Source: Methylomusa anaerophila
GTDB lineage: Bacteria; Bacillota; Negativicutes; Sporomusales; Sporomusaceae
Assembly: GCF_003966895.1 (NCBI RefSeq)
Contig: NZ_AP018449.1
Coordinates: forward strand, 2,373,501 to 2,437,500
Direction: 5' to 3'
DNA: 64,000 bases
How positions within the stretch are numbered: position 1 is the first letter of the stretch; every line of letters begins with the position of its first letter. This document shows positions 12,579 through 23,251 of the stretch, piece by piece. The translations under genes were made by a program, and so were the position numbers. Under the pieces are notes generated by a model, which was not told the origin of the DNA, did no database searches, and saw only the letters and a program-made list of their open reading frames with translations.

Positions 12579-13559
12579 ATGAAAATGGCTGATATTTACG
12601 GGAGCAATCGGTCTGACTTCTTATTCGGCGGCAGCGGCAGCGACGCGATCTACGGCTATGACCGTTCCGACCTTCTGTTTGGCGGGGACGGCGACGACTC
12701 ACTCGATGGCGGGGACGGTGACGACCTGCTGTATGGCGGCGGCGGCAGCGACTACTTGTACGGCGGCAGCGGCAGTGACTTGTTGTTTGGCGGCGAGGGC
12801 AGTGACTATCTGGACGGCGGCGAGGGCAGTGACGTGCTGTTTGGCGGCGCCGGCGACGATTATCTGGACGGCGGCGAGGGTGACGACCTGCTTTTCGGCG
12901 GCGAAGGCAACGACCTGCTGTTTGGCGGCGCCGGCAATGACCTGCTTTTCGGCGGCGAGGGCAACGACTTGCTTTTCGGTGGCGAGGACAACGACTTGCT
13001 TTTCGGCAGTGGCGGCGACGACTGGCTGGACGGCGGCGACGGCAGCGACGACCTGTACGGCGGCGCCGGCAACGACACCTATATTGTGGACAATCCCGGC
13101 GATGCGGTGCAGGAGAATCCCGGGGAAGGTGTCGACTCCGTAACCCTCTTGAATCTCACCAGCTATACCCTGCCGGATAACGTGGAAAACCTGTTTGGCA
13201 TCAATACGGACGGTCTCATCCTGACCGGCAACAGCCTGGACAACATAATCGACGGCGGCGACGGCAGCGACACCCTCTATGGCGGCAGCGGCAGCGACGT
13301 CTACAGCTTCCAGGGCGACTTCGGCCATGATACCATTGCCGCGGCCCCGGACAACCGCTATGACACGATCGACTTCAGCGCCTTTGCCAGTTCCGCCGCC
13401 GCCGTCGGCCTCGGCGGCAGCAGCGGCGGCGACCTCATCGTCACCATCGGCGCCAATACCGTCACCATCGCCGACTGGGACCAAAGCGGCGGCAACAGGC
13501 TCAGCACCTTCGTCTTCAGCGACGGCGTCAGGACAACCAACGGCACAAGCTGGCTGTAA
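12579..13559 (+). CDS. RTX-type calcium-binding repeat protein
   Basis: 326 residues, with roughly the first 170 made of glycine- and aspartate-rich nonapeptides of the type GGxGxDxLx (for example [18 protein letters not shown]). These fold into a calcium-filled beta-roll. A second short repeat block around residues 225-250 is followed by a C-terminal part with [14 protein letters not shown] and ending TNGTSWL, resembling the C-terminal regions of type I secretion substrates. No signal peptide is seen, so type I export is expected, but no HlyB/HlyD genes are nearby; a TolC-like gene lies at 50.8 kb. ATG 12579 follows AAAGGAGTGA. The GC-rich repeats create long spurious frames on the other strand. 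Function beyond calcium binding is unknown. Confidence 0.85.
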
Positions 13560-13614: not shown

Positions 13615-13655
13615 GACCCGGTCGCGTGAGGGACCGGGTCTTGTCAAGTTTTTTA
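13615..13655 (+). terminator. Rho-independent terminator after the RTX gene
   Basis: Perfect 9-bp stem GACCCGGTC / GACCGGGTC (13615-13623 and 13632-13640) followed by TTGTCAAGTTTTTT. Confidence 0.8.
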
Positions 13656-13684
13656 ATAATTTATGCATAATTATCTATCGAATA

Positions 13685-13727
13685 CCTCATGTGAGGGATT
13701 TACGTCCTGTTTGTCCTGCGATATCAT
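13685..13727 (+). promoter_or_regulatory. Palindromic operator plus promoter, receptor operon (site 2 of 3)
   Basis: CCTCATGTGAGG at 13685-13696, TTTACG at 13699-13704, 17-base spacer, TATCAT at 13722-13727. Transcription would start a few bases later and run into the cobalamin riboswitch at about 13750. Confidence 0.7.
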
Positions 13728-13749
13728 AAAAAGCAGAAAAGGAAAATAC

Positions 13750-13960
13750 AGGGATAGGTGCCCTTGGGGCTTAATAGGGAAGACCGGTGTGATGCCGGCG
13801 CGGTCCCGCCACTGTAACGGGGAGCAATCTCGCCTAGTTGCCACTGAAGCGGTCTGCTTCGGGAAGGCGCGGGGAAGCGATGAGCCGGAGTCAGGAGAAC
13901 TGCCTGTCCGGCAATCGCCATTTGACCTGCGAGCGACAGGGAGGAGATTACGAACGGCCG
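13750..13960 (+). ncRNA. Cobalamin riboswitch 1
   Basis: Adenosylcobalamin-family riboswitch: start GGGATAGGTGCC, the purine-rich core GGGAAGACCGGTGTGATGCC, the B12 box GCCACTGTAACGGGGAGC, then GATGAGCCGGAGTCAGGAG and GACCTGCGAGCGACAGG. The next stem-loop (13992-14014) is an intrinsic terminator, so ligand binding probably ends transcription before the receptor gene. A nearly identical riboswitch is at 21590-21788. Open frames across this RNA are not genes. Confidence 0.95.
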
Positions 13961-13991: not shown

Positions 13992-14014
13992 ACTCCCGTG
14001 AGGGAGTTTTTTTT
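13992..14014 (+). terminator. Riboswitch-controlled terminator 1
   Basis: ACTCCC-GTGA-GGGAGT followed by eight T residues, immediately downstream of the cobalamin aptamer; the expected expression platform. Confidence 0.85.
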
Positions 14015-14052: not shown

Positions 14053-17000
14053 TTGAGACAACACAAAGCAAAACAAGCAAAGCAAAGCGGCAAGTTAAAG
14101 AAAAAAGCTTTGGCCATGCGGATCTGCTGCGCCCTGGCCCTGGGTTTCGCGGCCCAGCCCGGGGGCCCTGCCTATGCGGCTGAAGCGGGGGCCTCGGTGA
14201 CGGTGGAGGCGGATAGCGTGAAAGAAACGACGGCGGATGCTTCCGGCCAAATAAATTACGGTACGTCTTATACAGACGTGACCATCCAAAATAGCGGCCG
14301 CTGGCGGCCGATGGATGCCATAACGTTTGGCGATCCGTACTATCTTCCGGTTTACGAGATTTATATCGATAAGCTTGACGTAAAGGCCGGCGGCATTATT
14401 GATTTGACCTGGCAGGAAACGCCTAATCCGGTGTTTTGGGGAGAACAGTTTGGAATAGGCGGGAGTAACTTTTTCCGTAATTTATGGGTAACGGACGCCA
14501 CGCTGGCGGACGGCGCGGTTTTCCGGATCAGCGCGGCACCTGCCGTCTATAATGGGGAATACTCTCTCAGTGTCACCCCGTCAGTGAATCGTATCACTTT
14601 GGGAAGCTATACCAGCCCGGTGGCCGGCGGCGGCACAATATATGTCCAGCTTGGCAATATCATCGGTTTTGATCCGCTGAAGATCAACAGCAGTTCGAAG
14701 ACTTTCGGAACAAGCGGGACGAGGTTTTTAACAATTTATGAACAAACATCCGGCCAGTTCCGGATTGCCGGCCAGGCCTCCTATCTGGACGCCCCCCTGA
14801 ATGTCTACAAAGTGACGCCGGTGATCGAGACTTCGGAGGCAGGCGGCAACGAGTATCAACCCGAATATATGGTGTTTGCCGATCTGCTGGACTATACCGT
14901 CGACAACACCGGCCTTCTGTCGGAGTCGGCCAAAACCGCCGGCGACATGCAGCTGGCGATGCGCAACCTGTGGCGGCTGGAAAATGCCAACACCCTCAGC
15001 CGCCTGGACGAACTGCACACCCCCGAGGCCAGGCGCCGGGAAGGCATCTGGACCAACGCCTACGGCGGCCGGTTTACCAATAACAGCAGCTACGGCCGCA
15101 GCGTGCGGGAAAACTATCACGGCCTGCAAGTCGGCTACGATCAGGAGCGCCCCGGCGGTTTCTACGGCGGCCGGCTGTATACCGGGCTATTCTTCCAGCA
15201 GACCAGGGCCGACACCGGCCTTCATACCGGCAGCGGCAGCTCCGAGAGCAGCGGCTTCGGCGCCTATGCCGCCTGGGTGGGCCGTAACGGCCGCTATCTG
15301 GACCTCATGCTGCGGGGCTCCAAACTCCACAACGATTACTATTTTTACAGCAACGGCGGCAAAATCGACGCCGACTACCATGCCTGGGCCTTCGGCCTCA
15401 ATGCCCGCTACGGCCTGCATAAACCCCTGACCAACGGCTGGTTCTGGGAACCCCACGTCGGTCTGGCCGCCGGCCGGATCGATGACGCGGATTATCCCAC
15501 CAGCAACGGCTTGCAGGTGACCCAAGGCAAGGTGGACGTTCTGACCGGGCAGGTGGGCGTGCTGGCCGGCCGGTCCCTGGGCGAAAAAGGGAATTTCTAC
15601 GCCAGGGTGACGGTCAACCATGATTTCGCCGGCAGCGGGTCCCTGCGGGGCAGCTATTCCGGCGGGACCCAGGCCATAGAAACCGGCGCCGCCAGGGATA
15701 CCTGGTGCGAGCTGGCCCTGGGCGCCAATGCCAGGATCTCCCCCAGCGGCAATTTCAACGTGAATGTGCTCCACACCTTCGGCGGCGATGTCAAGACCGA
15801 CTGGCAGGTAAACGGCGGCTTCAACTGGCGGTGGGGCGGCTTCGCTTCCCGGCAGAAACCGCCGGCTCAGCCCCAGGAGGCGGCAGCGCCGGCCGTGACG
15901 CCGGCAGCGGTTGCCGGCAGTACGCCGGCGAGCGGGCCTGAACCGCCGGCGGAGGGCGCCGGCAGCAACAGCCTGATCGCCGCCGGCGAAGCAATAGGCG
16001 CCGGCGACGACCTGGCGCTGCCGGTTGCCGGGCCGGACAAGCAGCCGGTCGCTGTCGCCCGTGACGGCGCCGCCGCCGGCCAGCCCGGCCCAACCGACCT
16101 TTCCCCCGAACCGGCTGCGACTGACGAACCCAGTCCGGCGCCGGCGCCCGCCCCTGCCGGGGAAAGCGCCCCTGCTTCCGGCTACGCCCTGGAGCCGGTG
16201 GTGGTGGAAGCGCCCCGCCCGGCGTGGGAGGACAAGCTGTCCCCCGGCACCGTGACCGTCATTGAACCGGATAAATACAAAGGCGAGCAAAAAACGCTGC
16301 CCGACCTCCTGAAGGAAGTCCCCGGCGTGCATGTGCGCTATTCCGCCGGCGGCATCGGCCAGTACACCACCGTCTCCGTGCGGGGCAGCACCGCCTCCCA
16401 GGTGGGGGTGTTCGTCGACGGCGTGCTGACCAATCTGGGGGGCGACGCGGCGGTGGACATCTCCACCATCCCGGTGAAAAACGTGGCCCGGATTGAGGTG
16501 TACCGGGGCTATGTCCCGGCCCGCTTCGGCGGCACCTACATGGGCGGCGTCATCAACATCGTCACCAAAAAGCCGGAAAAAGCCGATATTTCCGCTTCCT
16601 ACGGGCAACGCTCCTGGGGCGGCTACACCGGCAGCCTGCAGGTGGATGCCCCCCTGGGCAGCGGCTCCTTAATGGTGGGAATCAACCGGGACCAAAGCGA
16701 CGGGGATTTCCGCTATACGAATTTTGGTTATCAGAATGGTATTGCTACCCTACTGGCGTCTTATGAGCAATCTGTTGCAGATCTCGAAGGTCAGATTGCC
16801 CGGGGCGAGATTTCCGCCGACAACACGGATTATATTAGAGAGAAAAACTACTTGGCCTATCTCAAGCGTCTTTCGCCGACCCGCTATCGCATGAATAACA
16901 GCTATAAAAATACCGACGCGCTCCTCAAATGGCAGGATGAGCACTGGCAGGTCAAGGCCGGCTGGAAGCAAATCGACCGGCTGATGCCGCTATCACTTAG

Positions 17001-18444
17001 TGGCAACACATGCTGGGATAAGGAGGATGTGCCTGATGAATATTCGCCCGACGCGCCAGGTCCGTCCTACCAGAAGACTAATCTGAGGAAGAGACAGGAG
17101 CTTACCGCCAAAGATATTCTGGTCGGCCGGCGGGATACCAGCGGCAACCTGGAATGGGGCTGGAATGTCAATTATCTGGACCAGGAGAAAAGGTACAGCA
17201 ATCCTGATCTTGCACCAGGCAGCTATGCCATGACGAAGCCGCTCTCCGTCTGGAGCGCTTATGACTCCCGCAGGTTCGGCGCTTCGCTGGACGGGTCCTT
17301 CAAAGCCGGCAACCATCTGCTGGACTTCCTGCTGAACTATTCCCGCGAAACAATGGATATTAAGGGATGGAGAATGGATGATATTAATTCAATAGCTAAC
17401 AAGCAATGGAAATATAAATATCGCCAAACCCTCTTTAATGTCCAGCTGCAGGATACCATTACCCTGAATGATGCCGGCGACCTGTGGTTTACTCCCAGTA
17501 TCCGCTACAACTCTTCCGATATATTAGGCAGTTCCCGGGAAAAAAGGGGGGGGGGATGGTTGAAGGCGGACGATGAACAGAGAGACAGCAAGACCACCTG
17601 GCAGTTCGCCCTGAAAAAGAAGGTGAGCAACAGTCTGACCTTGCGCGCTTCCTACGGCAAGTACTACCGGCTGTTGAACCTTTATGAGATTGCCGGCGAC
17701 GGGGCCGGCATTCTGCCGCGCCCCGGTACTGATGCGCACGGTAACGCTTGGGGCTCCGTTTATCCGCAGCCGGAAGAGGGAATCCAGTGGGATGTGGGCG
17801 CTGCCTGGAAGGGCAGGTGGCTCAAGGCCGACGCCGATATCTCCCTGACCTATTTCAGCCGTCGGTCGGAAAATCTGCTGCAACTGCAGCGGTATGGCAT
17901 TAACAACTGGTGCTATGTGAATGCGGCCAAAGGCAAAGCCAGCGGCGTGGAACTGCAGAGCAATCTGACCTGGGCCAAATGGGATCTCAATCTGGCCGCT
18001 ACCTATGTACATGCCAGAAGTTCTTCCACTACCGGTAATACTCCCGCCGGCCTTTATACCTGGAATGATTACCCTATGACCTATACGCCGGAATGGGAAG
18101 GAAAGCTGCGCCTGACCTACCGTCCGGACAGCAAGACAGCCCTGTTCACGGAAATAAACTATACGGGCGAACAGTATTACGCCGATAGTTTATCTACTTT
18201 GGGTGGTGGTTCTAGTCAATATATGCAGACGGCGCTTACTACCGTAGGGTTGGGCTGCCGGTACCAACTGAACAAAAATGCCCAGTTGGTTGTCGGCGTC
18301 AACGATCTTTTTGACAAGGGACCGGAACTGAAGGAGATTTATACGGAAACCGACGGTTACGGCCTAAATGTGAGGAAGGAGTCCAACGCTGCCTATCCGC
18401 TGCAGGGACGGACTTACTACGCGACAGTGCAATATAATTTTTAG
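14053..18444 (+). CDS. Autotransporter - TonB-dependent receptor fusion protein
   Basis: A continuous 1463-codon frame encoding two outer-membrane modules. TTG 14053 follows GGAGGGGGAG by 7 bases. Residues 1-44 are a signal peptide (KKKALAMRICCALALGF, cleavage near AYA-AEA). About 45-325 is a short passenger of unknown fold. About 330-597 is an autotransporter-type barrel, from GIWTNAYGGRFTNN to VNGGFNWRWGGF. About 598-710 is a Pro/Ala-rich linker. A TonB-box-like stretch (LEPVVVEAP) leads to the plug, with LPDLLKEVPGVHVRY, VSVRGSTASQVGVFVDGV and GGVINIVTKKPEK; a receptor barrel runs to the C-terminal aromatic end VQYNF. The topology is consistent, because the linker and plug would both be periplasmic. 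Being behind a cobalamin riboswitch points to uptake of a corrinoid. The fusion is unusual; ligand specificity is inferred. Confidence 0.88.
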   Translation: MRQHKAKQAKQSGKLKKKALAMRICCALALGFAAQPGGPAYAAEAGASVTVEADSVKETTADASGQINYGTSYTDVTIQNSGRWRPMDAITFGDPYYLPVYEIYIDKLDVKAGGIIDLTWQETPNPVFWGEQFGIGGSNFFRNLWVTDATLADGAVFRISAAPAVYNGEYSLSVTPSVNRITLGSYTSPVAGGGTIYVQLGNIIGFDPLKINSSSKTFGTSGTRFLTIYEQTSGQFRIAGQASYLDAPLNVYKVTPVIETSEAGGNEYQPEYMVFADLLDYTVDNTGLLSESAKTAGDMQLAMRNLWRLENANTLSRLDELHTPEARRREGIWTNAYGGRFTNNSSYGRSVRENYHGLQVGYDQERPGGFYGGRLYTGLFFQQTRADTGLHTGSGSSESSGFGAYAAWVGRNGRYLDLMLRGSKLHNDYYFYSNGGKIDADYHAWAFGLNARYGLHKPLTNGWFWEPHVGLAAGRIDDADYPTSNGLQVTQGKVDVLTGQVGVLAGRSLGEKGNFYARVTVNHDFAGSGSLRGSYSGGTQAIETGAARDTWCELALGANARISPSGNFNVNVLHTFGGDVKTDWQVNGGFNWRWGGFASRQKPPAQPQEAAAPAVTPAAVAGSTPASGPEPPAEGAGSNSLIAAGEAIGAGDDLALPVAGPDKQPVAVARDGAAAGQPGPTDLSPEPAATDEPSPAPAPAPAGESAPASGYALEPVVVEAPRPAWEDKLSPGTVTVIEPDKYKGEQKTLPDLLKEVPGVHVRYSAGGIGQYTTVSVRGSTASQVGVFVDGVLTNLGGDAAVDISTIPVKNVARIEVYRGYVPARFGGTYMGGVINIVTKKPEKADISASYGQRSWGGYTGSLQVDAPLGSGSLMVGINRDQSDGDFRYTNFGYQNGIATLLASYEQSVADLEGQIARGEISADNTDYIREKNYLAYLKRLSPTRYRMNNSYKNTDALLKWQDEHWQVKAGWKQIDRLMPLSLSGNTCWDKEDVPDEYSPDAPGPSYQKTNLRKRQELTAKDILVGRRDTSGNLEWGWNVNYLDQEKRYSNPDLAPGSYAMTKPLSVWSAYDSRRFGASLDGSFKAGNHLLDFLLNYSRETMDIKGWRMDDINSIANKQWKYKYRQTLFNVQLQDTITLNDAGDLWFTPSIRYNSSDILGSSREKRGGGWLKADDEQRDSKTTWQFALKKKVSNSLTLRASYGKYYRLLNLYEIAGDGAGILPRPGTDAHGNAWGSVYPQPEEGIQWDVGAAWKGRWLKADADISLTYFSRRSENLLQLQRYGINNWCYVNAAKGKASGVELQSNLTWAKWDLNLAATYVHARSSSTTGNTPAGLYTWNDYPMTYTPEWEGKLRLTYRPDSKTALFTEINYTGEQYYADSLSTLGGGSSQYMQTALTTVGLGCRYQLNKNAQLVVGVNDLFDKGPELKEIYTETDGYGLNVRKESNAAYPLQGRTYYATVQYNF

Positions 18445-18605: not shown

Positions 18606-19856
18606 ATGAGTATGAAACTGTTTAAAAAAGTATGGATCGTCTTAGCGCTGGTGATGGCCTTTGCTACCACCGCCTGGGCCAACTCCGCCTATACGGTGGT
18701 GAACTCCGGTTATAGCCAGGGGAAAGTGGGGACCATCACAAGCACCGGCTCCGTAACCCCCAGCGCCGTCTCCACGCCTTTGAACGGCGCCCCGGCGGTG
18801 CACTCCTTCACCGACGCCAACGGCCAGCCCCGGATGCTTGTTTATAACTATACTGCCGCTACAGGTAACCCTGAAGTCCTAATCTACAACCCGGCCACAT
18901 CCCCGTGGACCCAGGTGAAATCTATTGCCGATTTGGCCGGCGCCAACATTGTCAACTTATACGGCATCGCCACATCCGGGAGCTATCTCTACGCGGTGGA
19001 CTATGACACCGCGAAGATCGTTCAAATCAACATGGCGGGCGATGCCTACTCCGTGACCGCCACCTACACATTCCCGGGGACCACGGGCTATGAAAAACAC
19101 GGTGTGGCCATTGCCGCCGTGGGTGACTACGTCTACGGCCTGTTTACGGAAGTGGACGATGATTATGCGACCAACCCTAATTACCTGACCAGCAAAGTGG
19201 TTAAACTCAATAAAAGCACCTTGGCTGCAGTCGGCACTGCCGCTCAGGTGGGCAAAAACGCCTTCACCCTGAAGTCTTACAATAACAAGCTCTACGTTGC
19301 CGCCGTTGGCGGCAAGCAGCGGGATGACGGGACCTACAACAGCGGGGAGTCCAAGCTGAATGTGGTGAACCTCGCCGATATGACGGTGGCCACGCCTTTT
19401 ACGTCGGGCACGGCAATTCCGTACGAATTCCGGGATATTACCCTCAGCACCGCCGGCGATGCCTATCTTCTGGTCGGCAGGTACACCCCCGGCTACGCAA
19501 CAATGACCGGGAAGGTGTACAAAACCACAGCGACGGCTATCGCCTCCGGCAGCCTCGGCACGGAAAAACAGAGTTTCAACACCGCCGGTTACTACTGGGC
19601 GCTGCTTTATGAAACTGCCGCCGACCGGCTGTGGTTCGCCCAAGGCAACCAGGTCGACCTCCGCATCGCATCTACTTACACCTCCATAGTGAGTTTGCCG
19701 GCGCAAACGATACTGGGCGGCTCCCAATATCCCAACCTCAACTCCGTCGCCTTAATCGGGCAGGCGGGCGCCACCCTCCAGGGCTATCAGGACCCGGCCC
19801 TGCCCGGCGTGCAATCCGGCCTGAAAGCAGCCCGAAAAATCAAAACCACGAAGTAA
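18606..19856 (+). CDS. Secreted beta-propeller-like protein, candidate corrinoid-binding partner of the receptor
   Basis: About 416 residues with a clear signal peptide (KLFKKVWIVLALVMAF, cleavage after TTAWA) and no lipobox. The mature part is a series of beta-strand repeats with recurring xLYxxDYDTxKIVxINM, DYVYGLF, KLYVAAVGG and DAYLLVGRY elements, as in seven- or eight-bladed propellers. It lies 160 bases downstream of the riboswitch-controlled receptor gene with no terminator between them, so it is probably co-transcribed. In Bacteroidetes a surface propeller protein, BtuG, captures B12 for the BtuB receptor; this gene could be a non-homologous or distant counterpart (inference). Start ATG 18606 or 18612; AGGAGG at 18596-18601 fits both. 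Its last 30 codons are also found, degenerate, at 21891-21985. Confidence 0.72.
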   Translation: MSMKLFKKVWIVLALVMAFATTAWANSAYTVVNSGYSQGKVGTITSTGSVTPSAVSTPLNGAPAVHSFTDANGQPRMLVYNYTAATGNPEVLIYNPATSPWTQVKSIADLAGANIVNLYGIATSGSYLYAVDYDTAKIVQINMAGDAYSVTATYTFPGTTGYEKHGVAIAAVGDYVYGLFTEVDDDYATNPNYLTSKVVKLNKSTLAAVGTAAQVGKNAFTLKSYNNKLYVAAVGGKQRDDGTYNSGESKLNVVNLADMTVATPFTSGTAIPYEFRDITLSTAGDAYLLVGRYTPGYATMTGKVYKTTATAIASGSLGTEKQSFNTAGYYWALLYETAADRLWFAQGNQVDLRIASTYTSIVSLPAQTILGGSQYPNLNSVALIGQAGATLQGYQDPALPGVQSGLKAARKIKTTK

Positions 19857-20005
19857 TCCTATCGTTTTTTCCTGCGCCGCCGTTGGCTATACGGCGGTCC
19901 GGTGTTTGTAAAAGGAGCTGGTACTGTTGTACTGGCTCTTTTGCTTTGGCGCAGGGCCGGCCCTATTCGATAACTGTCTGCTTCTTAGAGAAACGAGGCG
20001 AGGAA

Positions 20006-20200
20006 ATGTTTTTGCGACAATACCGAAAAACCGCGGTTGCTGCCTTGATTGCGGGATTGCTTATTTTTACGCTGCCGGTTGCCGCTTTGGCCGACGCAGT
20101 GAATGACGGACCGGCGCCGGCCGCGAATCCCGCTGATCCGCCGGCCAACCCGCCGAGTGTCAAAAGGGACGGTTCTGTGACTCATTTAAAAACACAGTAG
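20006..20200 (+). pseudogene. Truncated copy of the secretin gene
   Basis: Starts exactly like the secretin at 22115 (signal peptide MFLRQYRKTAVAALIAGLLI) and shares its upstream 150 bases, but only about 50 codons remain, with a 66-bp deletion in the proline-rich part. At 20155 the homology ends in a REP-like element that supplies the final residues and stop. A reading frame of 64 codons persists and could still be translated into an exported stub, but no secretin domain is left. Confidence 0.85.
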
Positions 20201-20479: not shown

Positions 20480-20836
20480 ATGCCTATCGCTAAAGATAAG
20501 AAAGATTACGTAAATAAAATTATGGATGAAATAGTTGGCAGTATGCGCAGAATTTTTGGTGATGACTTACGCCAGGTAATCCTTTTTGGTTCGTATGCTC
20601 GTGGAGAAGAAGAAGTGTATTCAGATATGGATGTAATGGTGTTGGTCAATTTACGTGATGCTGAATTATGTAAATATAATAATGTTCTTGCAGAAGTAAT
20701 GACCGATATTTCTGTTAAATATGGTGTTCTTCCGGCAATTATTGATAAAAATTATGAACAGTTTTATCATTGGTTGCCAGTATTGCCTTTTTACCGTAAT
20801 GTAAAGAACGAAGGTATTGAATTTTATGCAAGCTGA
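20480..20836 (+). CDS. MNT-domain nucleotidyltransferase (antitoxin of MNT/HEPN pair)
   Basis: 118 residues of the minimal nucleotidyltransferase family (MntA type). The active-site signature GSYARGE...SDMDVMV (GS plus DxD) is intact. In known MntA/HepT systems this enzyme adds AMP to the partner HEPN RNase and blocks it. ATG 20480 lies 9 bases after AGGAAAGGAA. The gene overlaps the HEPN gene by about ten bases, the usual arrangement. Composition is much more AT-rich than the neighbouring receptor and secretin genes, consistent with separate acquisition. It sits between two REP-like elements. Confidence 0.88.
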   Translation: MPIAKDKKDYVNKIMDEIVGSMRRIFGDDLRQVILFGSYARGEEEVYSDMDVMVLVNLRDAELCKYNNVLAEVMTDISVKYGVLPAIIDKNYEQFYHWLPVLPFYRNVKNEGIEFYAS

Positions 20837-21233
20837 TATGTTAGAGTTGTCTAAGTATCGTATGTTAAAGGCGAAGGAATGTCTTGCGGATGCTCAGGAT
20901 GCTTTTGAAGAAAGTCGGCTAGCAAACTCAATTAACCGGTCATATTATGCGATGTTTCATGCAACTAGAGCATTATTGGCTATAGATAGTTTTGATTCTA
21001 AAAAACATTCAAGTATTTTAGGCTATTTTAATCAGCAGTATATTGCTAGTAAAAGGGTTGAAACGAATTATTACCAGATGCTGGCCAATGCTTTCAGGGT
21101 AAGGAATAAGACTGATTATGATGATTTTTATATTGTTAGCAGGGAAGAGACTTTGCAACAATTAAACAATGCTCAAACTTTTATCACATTCATGAATGCT
21201 TTCATTGATAGTTTGATAGAAATTAGTGAATAG
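20826..21233 (+). CDS. HEPN-domain protein (toxin of MNT/HEPN pair)
   Basis: About 135 residues, all-helical HEPN family (UPF0332/COG1895 type). Recognisable parts are ANSINRSYYAMFHATRALL, KKHSSILGYF and RNKTDYDDFYIV. HEPN partners of MNT enzymes are metal-independent RNases. The clear RxxxxH of the canonical HepT active site is not obvious here, so nuclease activity is uncertain. Start taken as ATG 20826 (MQADMLELSK), overlapping the MNT stop; ATG 20838 is possible. AT-rich like its partner. Confidence 0.82.
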   Translation: MQADMLELSKYRMLKAKECLADAQDAFEESRLANSINRSYYAMFHATRALLAIDSFDSKKHSSILGYFNQQYIASKRVETNYYQMLANAFRVRNKTDYDDFYIVSREETLQQLNNAQTFITFMNAFIDSLIEISE

Positions 21234-21375: not shown

Positions 21376-21449
21376 AGTGGCATAGGGACGGTTCTGTGAC
21401 TCACTTAAAAGCACAATAGTTGTCAAGAACCCCGTCTCTGACACTCTCC
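21376..21449. repeat. REP-like palindromic element 2
   Basis: Contains GGGACGGTTCTGTGACTCAC and AAGAACCCCGTCTCTGACACT, matching the element at 20156-20221. With it, this copy brackets the MNT/HEPN operon. Confidence 0.68.
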
Positions 21450-21517
21450 AATACCAGCCTTATCCGTAATGGCAGACAATTTTTTTTTGACAATTGTGCA
21501 TAATTATCCACCAAATA

Positions 21518-21560
21518 CCTCATATGAGGGATTTACGCTATATTTATCCTAAGATATCAT
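21518..21560 (+). promoter_or_regulatory. Palindromic operator plus promoter, secretin unit (site 3 of 3)
   Basis: CCTCATATGAGG (a perfect 12-base palindrome) at 21518-21529, TTTACG at 21532-21537, 17-base spacer and TATCAT at 21555-21560. It is the duplicate of site 2, and the riboswitch follows at the same distance. Confidence 0.7.
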
Positions 21561-21589
21561 AAGAAGCAGAAAAGGAAAATACGGGATAG

Positions 21590-21788
21590 GTGCCCTTGGG
21601 GGCTTAATAGGGAAGACCGGTGTGATGCCGGCACGGTCCCGCCACTGTAACGGGGAGCAATCTCGCCTAGTTGCCACTGAAGCGGCCTGCTTTGGGAAGG
21701 CGCGGGGAAGCGATGAACCGGAGTCAGGAGAACTGCCTGTCCGGCAATCGCCATTTGACCTGCGAGCGACAGGGAGGAGATTACGGAA
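21590..21788 (+). ncRNA. Cobalamin riboswitch 2
   Basis: Near-identical duplicate of the riboswitch at 13750-13960: GGGATAGGTGCC, GGGAAGACCGGTGTGATGCC, GCCACTGTAACGGGGAGC and GACCTGCGAGCGACAGG are all conserved. Only scattered substitutions are seen, so it looks functional. Confidence 0.95.
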
Positions 21789-21890: not shown

Positions 21891-21985
21891 CTTAATCGGG
21901 CAGGCGGGCAGCACCAACCATCCAGGGCTATCAGGACCCGGCCCTGACCGGCGTGCAATCAGGTCTAAAAACAACGCGAAAAATC
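21891..21985 (+). pseudogene. Remnant of the 3' end of the propeller gene
   Basis: Matches the last part of the propeller gene (19751-19845), from CTTAATCGGGCAGGCGGGC through GGGCTATCAGGACCCGGCCC to CGCGAAAAATCAAAAC, with a small insertion that breaks the frame. It is joined directly to the riboswitch terminator region, so the receptor gene and most of the propeller gene are missing from this copy. Confidence 0.85.
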
Positions 21986-22114
21986 AAAACATTGGCTATA
22001 CGGCGGTCCGGTGTTTGTAAAAGGAGCTGGTACTGTTGTACTGGCTCTTTTGCTTTGGCGCAGGGCCGGCCCTATTCGATAACTGTCTGCTTCTTAGAGA
22101 AACGAGGCGAGAAA

Positions 22115-23251
22115 ATGTTTTTGCGACAATACCGAAAAACCGCGGTTGCTGCCTTGATTGCGGGATTGCTTATTTTTACGCTGCCGGTTGCCGCTTCGAC
22201 CGACGCGGTGAATGACGGACCGCCGCCGGCCGCTGCCGGTGCGGCGCCAGCCGGCGGCCCGGACAGTACGCCGGGGCAGGCGCCGGCGGCGAATCCCGCT
22301 GATCCGCCGGCCAACCCGCCGGATCAGGCTCCGGCGGCCGCGCCGCAGCCTGCCTTCGACCTGCCGGCCCCCGACCCCGGCCTGCCGGCAAATACCGGGC
22401 TGTCGCCGCTGGTCATCAAGCTGGAATACGTAAAGGCCGAGCAAGTGAAAGCGATGCTTGCCGCTTTATTTCCGGATAACCGGGTCAGGGCGGAAATTAT
22501 TAACGGCATGCTGGTGGCGGTCGGCAGCGAGGAGGACTGCGCCATGGTTAAGGACATGCTGGCCAGGATTGATGTCGCGCCGAAGCAGGTTATTTTTGAA
22601 GCCGAAGCGATCGAGGTATCGCGGGACGATGCCAGAAAAATCGGCATCGACTGGGGGCCGGTCACCGCCTTGCCGGGCGCGGCGACGACCGACGGCAGTT
22701 CTTTTCGCCTCGGGCTGGGCATTCCCAACCATGAGGAATACGGCGTCAATGTTTCGGCCACGATTCGCCATCTGGTGGAAACCAAAAAAGGCCGGCTGCT
22801 GGCCAGCCCGCGGATTGCCGCTTTGGACGGACAGACGGCGCAAATTCTCATCGGCGACAAGCTGGCGGTGGAAAGTACGCAGATTTCCAGCGGCACGACC
22901 ATCACCACGGTCACCTACGTGGAAGTGGGCATCAAACTGGAAGTGACGCCCACCATCCATGCGGACGGCACTATAAGCACCCATATCAAACCGGAAGTCA
23001 GCAACAAAACGGACACTACCAGCAGCGGCAACCCCAACATCCGGACCCGCCAGGCCGAAACAACGCTGCGGGTAAAAAACGGCGAAACAATCGTGCTTGG
23101 CGGTCTGATCCAGCGCCAGGAAACCCAGGATACGGTCAAATTCCCGCTATTGGGCGATATACCCATCATCGGGCAGTTCTTTCGCTCGACAACCAAGGAA
23201 AAAACTGAAAGCGAGCTGATTATCCTAATTACCCCGAAATTGATAGAGTAG
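22115..23251 (+). CDS. Compact secretin-family outer-membrane protein
   Basis: 378 residues: signal peptide (MFLRQYRKTAVAALIAGLLI, cleavage near VAAST), a Pro/Ala-rich stretch to about residue 90, one secretin N-type domain (LVIKLEYVKAEQVKAMLAAL...VGSEEDCAMVKDMLARID), then the secretin pore domain with VETKKGRLLASPRI, ETTLRVKNGETIVLGGLI and FPLLGDIPIIGQFF. Secretins (GspD, PilQ) form gated pores in the outer membrane. This one is much shorter than GspD or PilQ and has no adjacent secretion genes. It stands behind cobalamin riboswitch 2, an unusual regulation. A possible role is export of the secreted proteins of the island or entry of a large corrinoid; both are inference. An upstream in-frame extension from 21953 is leftover duplication, not coding. 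Confidence 0.88.
   Translation: MFLRQYRKTAVAALIAGLLIFTLPVAASTDAVNDGPPPAAAGAAPAGGPDSTPGQAPAANPADPPANPPDQAPAAAPQPAFDLPAPDPGLPANTGLSPLVIKLEYVKAEQVKAMLAALFPDNRVRAEIINGMLVAVGSEEDCAMVKDMLARIDVAPKQVIFEAEAIEVSRDDARKIGIDWGPVTALPGAATTDGSSFRLGLGIPNHEEYGVNVSATIRHLVETKKGRLLASPRIAALDGQTAQILIGDKLAVESTQISSGTTITTVTYVEVGIKLEVTPTIHADGTISTHIKPEVSNKTDTTSSGNPNIRTRQAETTLRVKNGETIVLGGLIQRQETQDTVKFPLLGDIPIIGQFFRSTTKEKTESELIILITPKLIE

Follow-up and report, generated by a model that had tools for sequence, protein, structure and literature searches.

Does a secreted propeller of a Negativicutes bacterium capture corrinoids for the receptor encoded next to it, as BtuG does in Bacteroides? This question is raised by a gene of Methylomusa anaerophila (Sporomusaceae, Negativicutes, diderm Bacillota; genome size 4.78 Mb) located in the 64,000-nucleotide stretch of DNA analyzed here, referred to below as the window. 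BtuG has been held to be specific to Bacteroidota, and this has been offered as one reason why these bacteria are strong competitors for gut corrinoids. It was described as exclusive to Bacteroidetes (eLife 2018; PMC6143338), and BtuG2, working with BtuB2, binds its ligand in a central cavity by hydrogen bonds to the corrin side chains and then transfers it to the receptor beneath (PMC10404256, PMC6143338). The literature search yielded no paper joining BtuG with Negativicutes. The reading we favor, with a probability of about three in four, is that the window protein is a secreted BtuG-like corrinoid-capture propeller working with the receptor, the ligand binding, the complex and the export route being those we infer from the evidence set out below.

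The propeller gene and the features preceding it are as follows:

13739 to 13921, plus strand: cobalamin riboswitch aptamer 1, in the leader of the receptor-propeller operon (Rfam RF00174, 113 bits, E 1.6e-27)
13992 to 14007, plus strand: terminator-like hairpin and T run behind aptamer 1 (pattern scan, consensus match only)
14053 to 18444, plus strand: receptor of 1463 aa (Pfam PF03797, PF07715, PF00593)
18606 to 19856, plus strand: putative secreted BtuG-like seven-bladed propeller of 416 aa (predicted model, structural matches, family profile)

The hairpin is probably the expression platform of riboswitch 1. The receptor consists of an N-terminal passenger, an autotransporter barrel (residues 332-571), a linker, and a TonB plug and barrel (730-1419) with matches to PF07715 and PF00593 that both exceed the cutoff. 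The best TonB-receptor model in NCBIfam was TIGR01779 (TonB-B12), the BtuB equivalog, with a score of 120.6 bits that falls far short of the cutoff of 599.7. Judging from its sequence, the receptor is BtuB-like, below the equivalog cutoff: it shares the plug and barrel of a TonB-dependent receptor with BtuB of E. coli, from which it differs in this score and in its N-terminal autotransporter module. The receptor stop codon and the propeller ATG are 161 nt apart, and the pattern scan detected no terminator-like or promoter-like site in this gap. The original prediction that the propeller gene lies directly 3' of a riboswitch-controlled receptor, with no terminator between them, is thus borne out by the RF00174 match and the clean gap. 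Immediately 5' of riboswitch 1 is a gene (12579-13559) encoding a protein with RTX-type calcium-binding nonapeptide repeats. Autotransporter and TonB receptor barrels combined in one chain recur in Negativicutes propeller loci (e.g., L024 and L109-L113).

The propeller frame is intact and encodes a free-standing protein, in which the following parts were distinguished:

18606 to 18683, plus strand: Sec signal peptide, residues 1-26, probable cut AWA|NS (sequence; hydrophobic core score)
18675 to 19763, plus strand: propeller domain, residues 24-386 (range aligned to BtuG in VIA-align)
19242 to 19343, plus strand: most invariant segment, residues 213-246, VGKNA...GGxQ...N (the part alignable with BtuG by sequence)
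19764 to 19853, plus strand: basic, low-confidence C-terminal tail, residues 387-416 (pLDDT < 50)

A Sec signal peptide forms the N-terminus, MSMKLFKKVWIVLALVMAFATTAWA|NS; residues 4-18 are helical in the AlphaFold model, and inspection of the sequence revealed no lipobox cysteine. The model, built with 16 relatives aligned, is all-beta (pLDDT 80.7, pTM 0.82). Near-invariant positions occur every ~49-56 residues at seven places (62, 117, 166, 218, 274, 328, and 379), and N218, G235, Q238, and N245 are invariant in 54 family sequences; this seven-fold pattern would fit a ligand site at the mouth of the channel. Residue 62 is Asp in 52 of 53 relatives and Ala in the window copy, the binding capacity of which may therefore be altered. 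Tails comparable to residues 387-416 are present in other free-standing relatives and absent in a prophage copy.

Among the solved structures, Foldseek ranked BtuG2 (8ptf) first, with an E-value of 1.9e-10, and the first ten rows of the VIA-align comparison were all BtuG (Z 27.1-28.6, rmsd ~3 over ~305 residues). The first places in both Foldseek and VIA-align again went to BtuG when the Methylobacillus relative was modeled separately (pLDDT 87.8). The original prediction had described a signal peptide, blade-like repeats, and the lack of a lipobox, which would imply a different mode of attachment, and had named a fold other than a propeller as one outcome that would speak against it; all of this agrees with the plain Sec signal peptide, the seven conserved places, and the predicted propeller, of which BtuG is the nearest solved structure. 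The seven-bladed propeller is a common fold, and non-BtuG seven-bladed propellers came close behind in VIA-align (Z 27.0 and lower, 1-2 Z units below). Since unrelated propellers are nearly equal in Z, the fold alone is not decisive for kinship with BtuG.

No matches with the window propeller were found in Pfam, NCBIfam, or PADLOC, phmmer with the single sequence recovered neither BtuG nor any other relative from the PDB, and searches with short peptides retrieved no relatives from genome contigs or plasmids. The published criterion for BtuG homology is a BlastP E-value < 1e-10 to BT1490, BT1954, or BT2095, and since phmmer was blind to BtuG, this strict criterion is probably missed. When a profile of 54 family members was compared with 177,635 PDB sequences, only BtuG fell under E 0.01 (5e-5 to 1.5e-4). 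Using hhalign, we obtained an E-value of 2.9e-6 (probability 88%, 153 columns in register) against three Bacteroidota BtuG sequences and 0.002 to 0.004 against single ones, with 0.094 for Pgl and 0.14 for YncE as controls. The VGKNA segment of the family aligns with 'VGRNA...GKLYVSNSGG' of BtuG, and the aligned part holds those residues of the family that are most invariant (N218, G235, Q238, and N245). The ranking of PDB sequences is sensitive to the alignment used: with a 16-member profile, designed and human kelch propellers stood above BtuG (E 1e-6 vs 0.017). These matches vanished with the 54-member profile, leaving only BtuG, which is why the latter profile was trusted. Remote homology between this family and BtuG, resting on about two blades, is well supported at the sequence level, and the profile evidence points to a link stronger than the term "analogue" in the original prediction.

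Relatives were gathered by whole-genome search and profile scan. They were identified in 45 of the 380 Negativicutes genomes, belonging to 24 of 102 genera, and outside this group in Methylobacillus, Oryzomicrobium, Zoogloeaceae, Azoarcus, Accumulibacter, Sphingomonas, and one Synergistes MAG. Two weak matches in other Bacillota (E ~4e-4 to 6e-4) were treated as generic propellers, and a matching contig of a Bacillota MAG (G581), which has the appearance of a Synergistota-type contig, was excluded from the counted spread; the presumed C-terminal sorting signal of its copy was not recognized by NCBIfam. A same-strand TonB-dependent receptor is present within 1 kb of 68 of the 70 homologous ORFs, a set including a few fragments or near-copies (65 after copy removal, 53 of them testable upstream), and this association is not due to chance. 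The two copies without a receptor are the prophage copy (L023) and a truncated one (L025). Of the 53 testable cases, 47 are preceded on the same strand by a cobalamin riboswitch at a distance of at most 6.5 kb, and one more has a riboswitch detected by Rfam only; in a check set, the riboswitch model behind this count missed a single Rfam match. Based on the genome-wide riboswitch density, chance would account for ~1.3% per case (binomial P ~1e-82 with uniform placement). Uniform placement and independence are simplifications, given the kinship among the loci and the clustering of riboswitches, but the excess is much too large to be explained by them. In ten loci the propeller is 5' of the receptor, and the riboswitch is located 0.3-1.4 kb upstream of the propeller. 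The cassette consisting of riboswitch, receptor, and propeller is conserved across many genera, and in Methylobacillus the propeller-receptor pair is surrounded by cobU, a gene for a BtuF-type binding protein, cobN, cobB, and cobO.

How the propeller might reach the cell surface varies in the family. In one clade (support 100/99), it is the passenger of giant autotransporters of 1.7 to more than 3 thousand residues adjoining the receptor (e.g., L027: 2232 aa, propeller 45-414, barrel 1965-2232), and it should therefore sit outside the cell. No type V barrel is present C-terminal to the window propeller in the same chain, which is a free protein of 416 aa. The features further downstream in the window bear on its exit:

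21571 to 21754, plus strand: cobalamin riboswitch aptamer 2, upstream of the secretin (Rfam RF00174, 113.8 bits)
21903 to 21990, plus strand: remnant of the 3' end of a second propeller gene (84% identical to 19759-19846; residues 376-414 match)
22115 to 23251, plus strand: secretin of the GspD/PilQ type behind riboswitch 2 (Pfam PF00263, E 8.9e-49)

A linked secretin was found with all five independent free propellers carrying a signal peptide and with none of the ~40 free ones without it. These secretins stand behind a cobalamin riboswitch wherever this is readable, and in the tree the combined trait falls on two or more distinct branches, which no bootstrap tree unites. This co-occurrence makes the secretin a candidate outer-membrane exit for the window propeller. 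The host genome carries two further secretins and a cluster with a type II/type IV pilus-type ATPase, which could provide the rest of the export machinery. The positions 19883-20124 hold a truncated secretin copy 98% identical to its counterpart at 21992-22233, and the repeat pair 13649-13948 / 21482-21781 is a further scar, in the riboswitch region. As read from the sequence, these scars are those of a tandem duplication of a riboswitch-receptor-propeller-secretin block, from which the second receptor and propeller were deleted, so that riboswitch 2 now stands before the secretin; the truncated copy indicates that a secretin formerly lay directly 3' of the window propeller. Within the duplication there is a nucleotidyltransferase and HEPN pair (MNT-HEPN type toxin-antitoxin, 20480-21233), flanked by copies of a 36-nt direct repeat at 20165-20200 and 21384-21419.

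Most of the free relatives, including all the proteobacterial ones, are signal-less (e.g., L020:9071-10318 and L060:10001-11269). This is a point against extracellular capture, since a purely extracellular role does not explain it, and it raises the question as to how these copies exit from the cell. The C-terminal tails they share were rejected as their secretion signal because tails also occur in signal-bearing copies. A papain-family C1 peptidase without any obvious signal peptide is often a neighbor of signal-less propellers (L018, L020, L022, L026, L029, L030, and L135). In Sporomusa termitida, riboswitches, fusion receptor, propeller, and peptidase are all carried by the plasmid pSPTER (L135).

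On these grounds, the following sequence of events can be proposed. When corrinoid is scarce, riboswitch 1 would permit transcription of the operon, as suggested by its identity and by the hairpin. The receptor, with its autotransporter barrel and BtuB-like TonB-dependent barrel in one chain, would be inserted into the outer membrane, while the propeller would cross the inner membrane by Sec and then probably leave through the nearby riboswitch-controlled secretin. Outside the cell, it would bind cobalamin or another corrinoid in the mouth of the central channel, lined by conserved Asn, Asp, Gln, and Trp, and hand it to the receptor in a putative complex, as BtuG does to BtuB.

A role as a lid or docking scaffold for assembly or gating of the receptor, without any useful affinity for corrinoids, is unlikely. 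The obligate linkage to a receptor is as compatible with a partner role as with the binding of a ligand, and the window copy has lost a near-invariant Asp, but polar residues and glycine predominate among the invariant ones, whose seven-fold pattern fits blade starts around a central channel, and the family's most invariant residues lie in the segment shared with BtuG. The same lost Asp, together with the duplication scars, the truncated secretin copy, and a long branch, might mean that the window copy is degenerating and possibly a relic in a locus where a tandem duplication has collapsed. Its full-length frame, signal peptide, confident fold, and retention of nearly all the other invariant residues make this very unlikely.

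The protein might also be a secreted enzyme on a propeller scaffold, trimming or remodeling corrinoids, for example, or acting as a lactonase, given that its structural neighbors include 6-phosphogluconolactonases, a gluconolactonase, and NirF. We regard this as highly improbable, since BtuG outranks all of them in both models, no enzyme family of Pfam or NCBIfam matches, and Pgl gives no profile signal. That the ligand is not a corrinoid but haem, a siderophore, or another cofactor, the B12 riboswitch being a metabolic link, is hardly plausible either: TonB haem and siderophore models score about the same as the B12 model on several receptors, and XusB and YncE/PqqU point to propeller partners for other TonB receptors as well, whereas the link to the riboswitch is found again in separate phyla, the profile matches BtuG specifically, and cob genes flank the Methylobacillus pair.

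Corrinoid capture by the propeller being the preferred reading, its closest parallel is BtuG (BtuG1/2/3 of Bacteroides). Both are seven-bladed propellers encoded beside a TonB receptor under cobalamin-riboswitch control, with a common VGxN...LYV...GG segment, and BtuG is the closest solved structure. Very tight cobalamin binding and a lid-like complex with the receptor further characterize BtuG. The window family differs in that it occurs outside the Bacteroidota, shows ~13% identity, has a C-terminal tail, and often has a partner receptor fused to an autotransporter barrel. Its display would involve a signal peptide and probably a secretin, or an autotransporter passenger, or no signal at all, and the window propeller has neither a lipobox nor a lipoprotein export signal. 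We therefore call it BtuG-like and not BtuG, since this lipoprotein hallmark is absent. In the literature searched, no precedent was found for these apparent differences in export and display. YncE beside PqqU in E. coli and XusB in Bacteroides fragilis likewise adjoin or serve a TonB-dependent transporter, but with other ligands, and YncE has no profile match to the family; the pairing of propellers with receptors is thus a more general theme. BtuH and the DUF4465 family are accessory B12-binding proteins for cell-surface capture, DUF4465 being an augmented beta-jellyroll and not a propeller (PMC13398666); DUF4465 shows that other B12 binders exist outside the Bacteroidota.

The original prediction is largely supported, and the system extends further than it proposed. 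Because relatives stand beside B12-riboswitch-controlled receptors across the Negativicutes (relatives of Sporomusa included) and in some Proteobacteria and Synergistota, what was thought to be a B12-capture trick of one phylum appears to be widespread. If they are genuine, surface B12-capture propellers would represent an outer-membrane strategy of general occurrence, with novel ways of display, and many 'hypothetical proteins' would gain a testable function. More tentatively, and at somewhat less than even odds, BtuG-like capture might be an old mobile module present in at least three further phyla with interchangeable modes of display, which a prophage tail fibre has taken up, probably to dock on the B12 receptor in the manner of the host's propeller. 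Foldseek against viral models returned assorted propellers, including a tail fibre, and was uninformative. No family relatives were found when viral contigs and phage genomes were searched, and a single genome is therefore the basis of the prophage case. Here the propeller (L023:8799-10211, minus strand; G009:C1 ~3936300-3937700) is fused behind a tail-fibre-type N-terminal domain, adjoins a 'central tail fiber J' (phrog_31), and shares 60% identity with the receptor-linked propeller of the same genome. This fusion may enable the phage to dock on the B12 receptor, which would be a possible case of a phage imitating a nutrient-capture protein to find its receptor.
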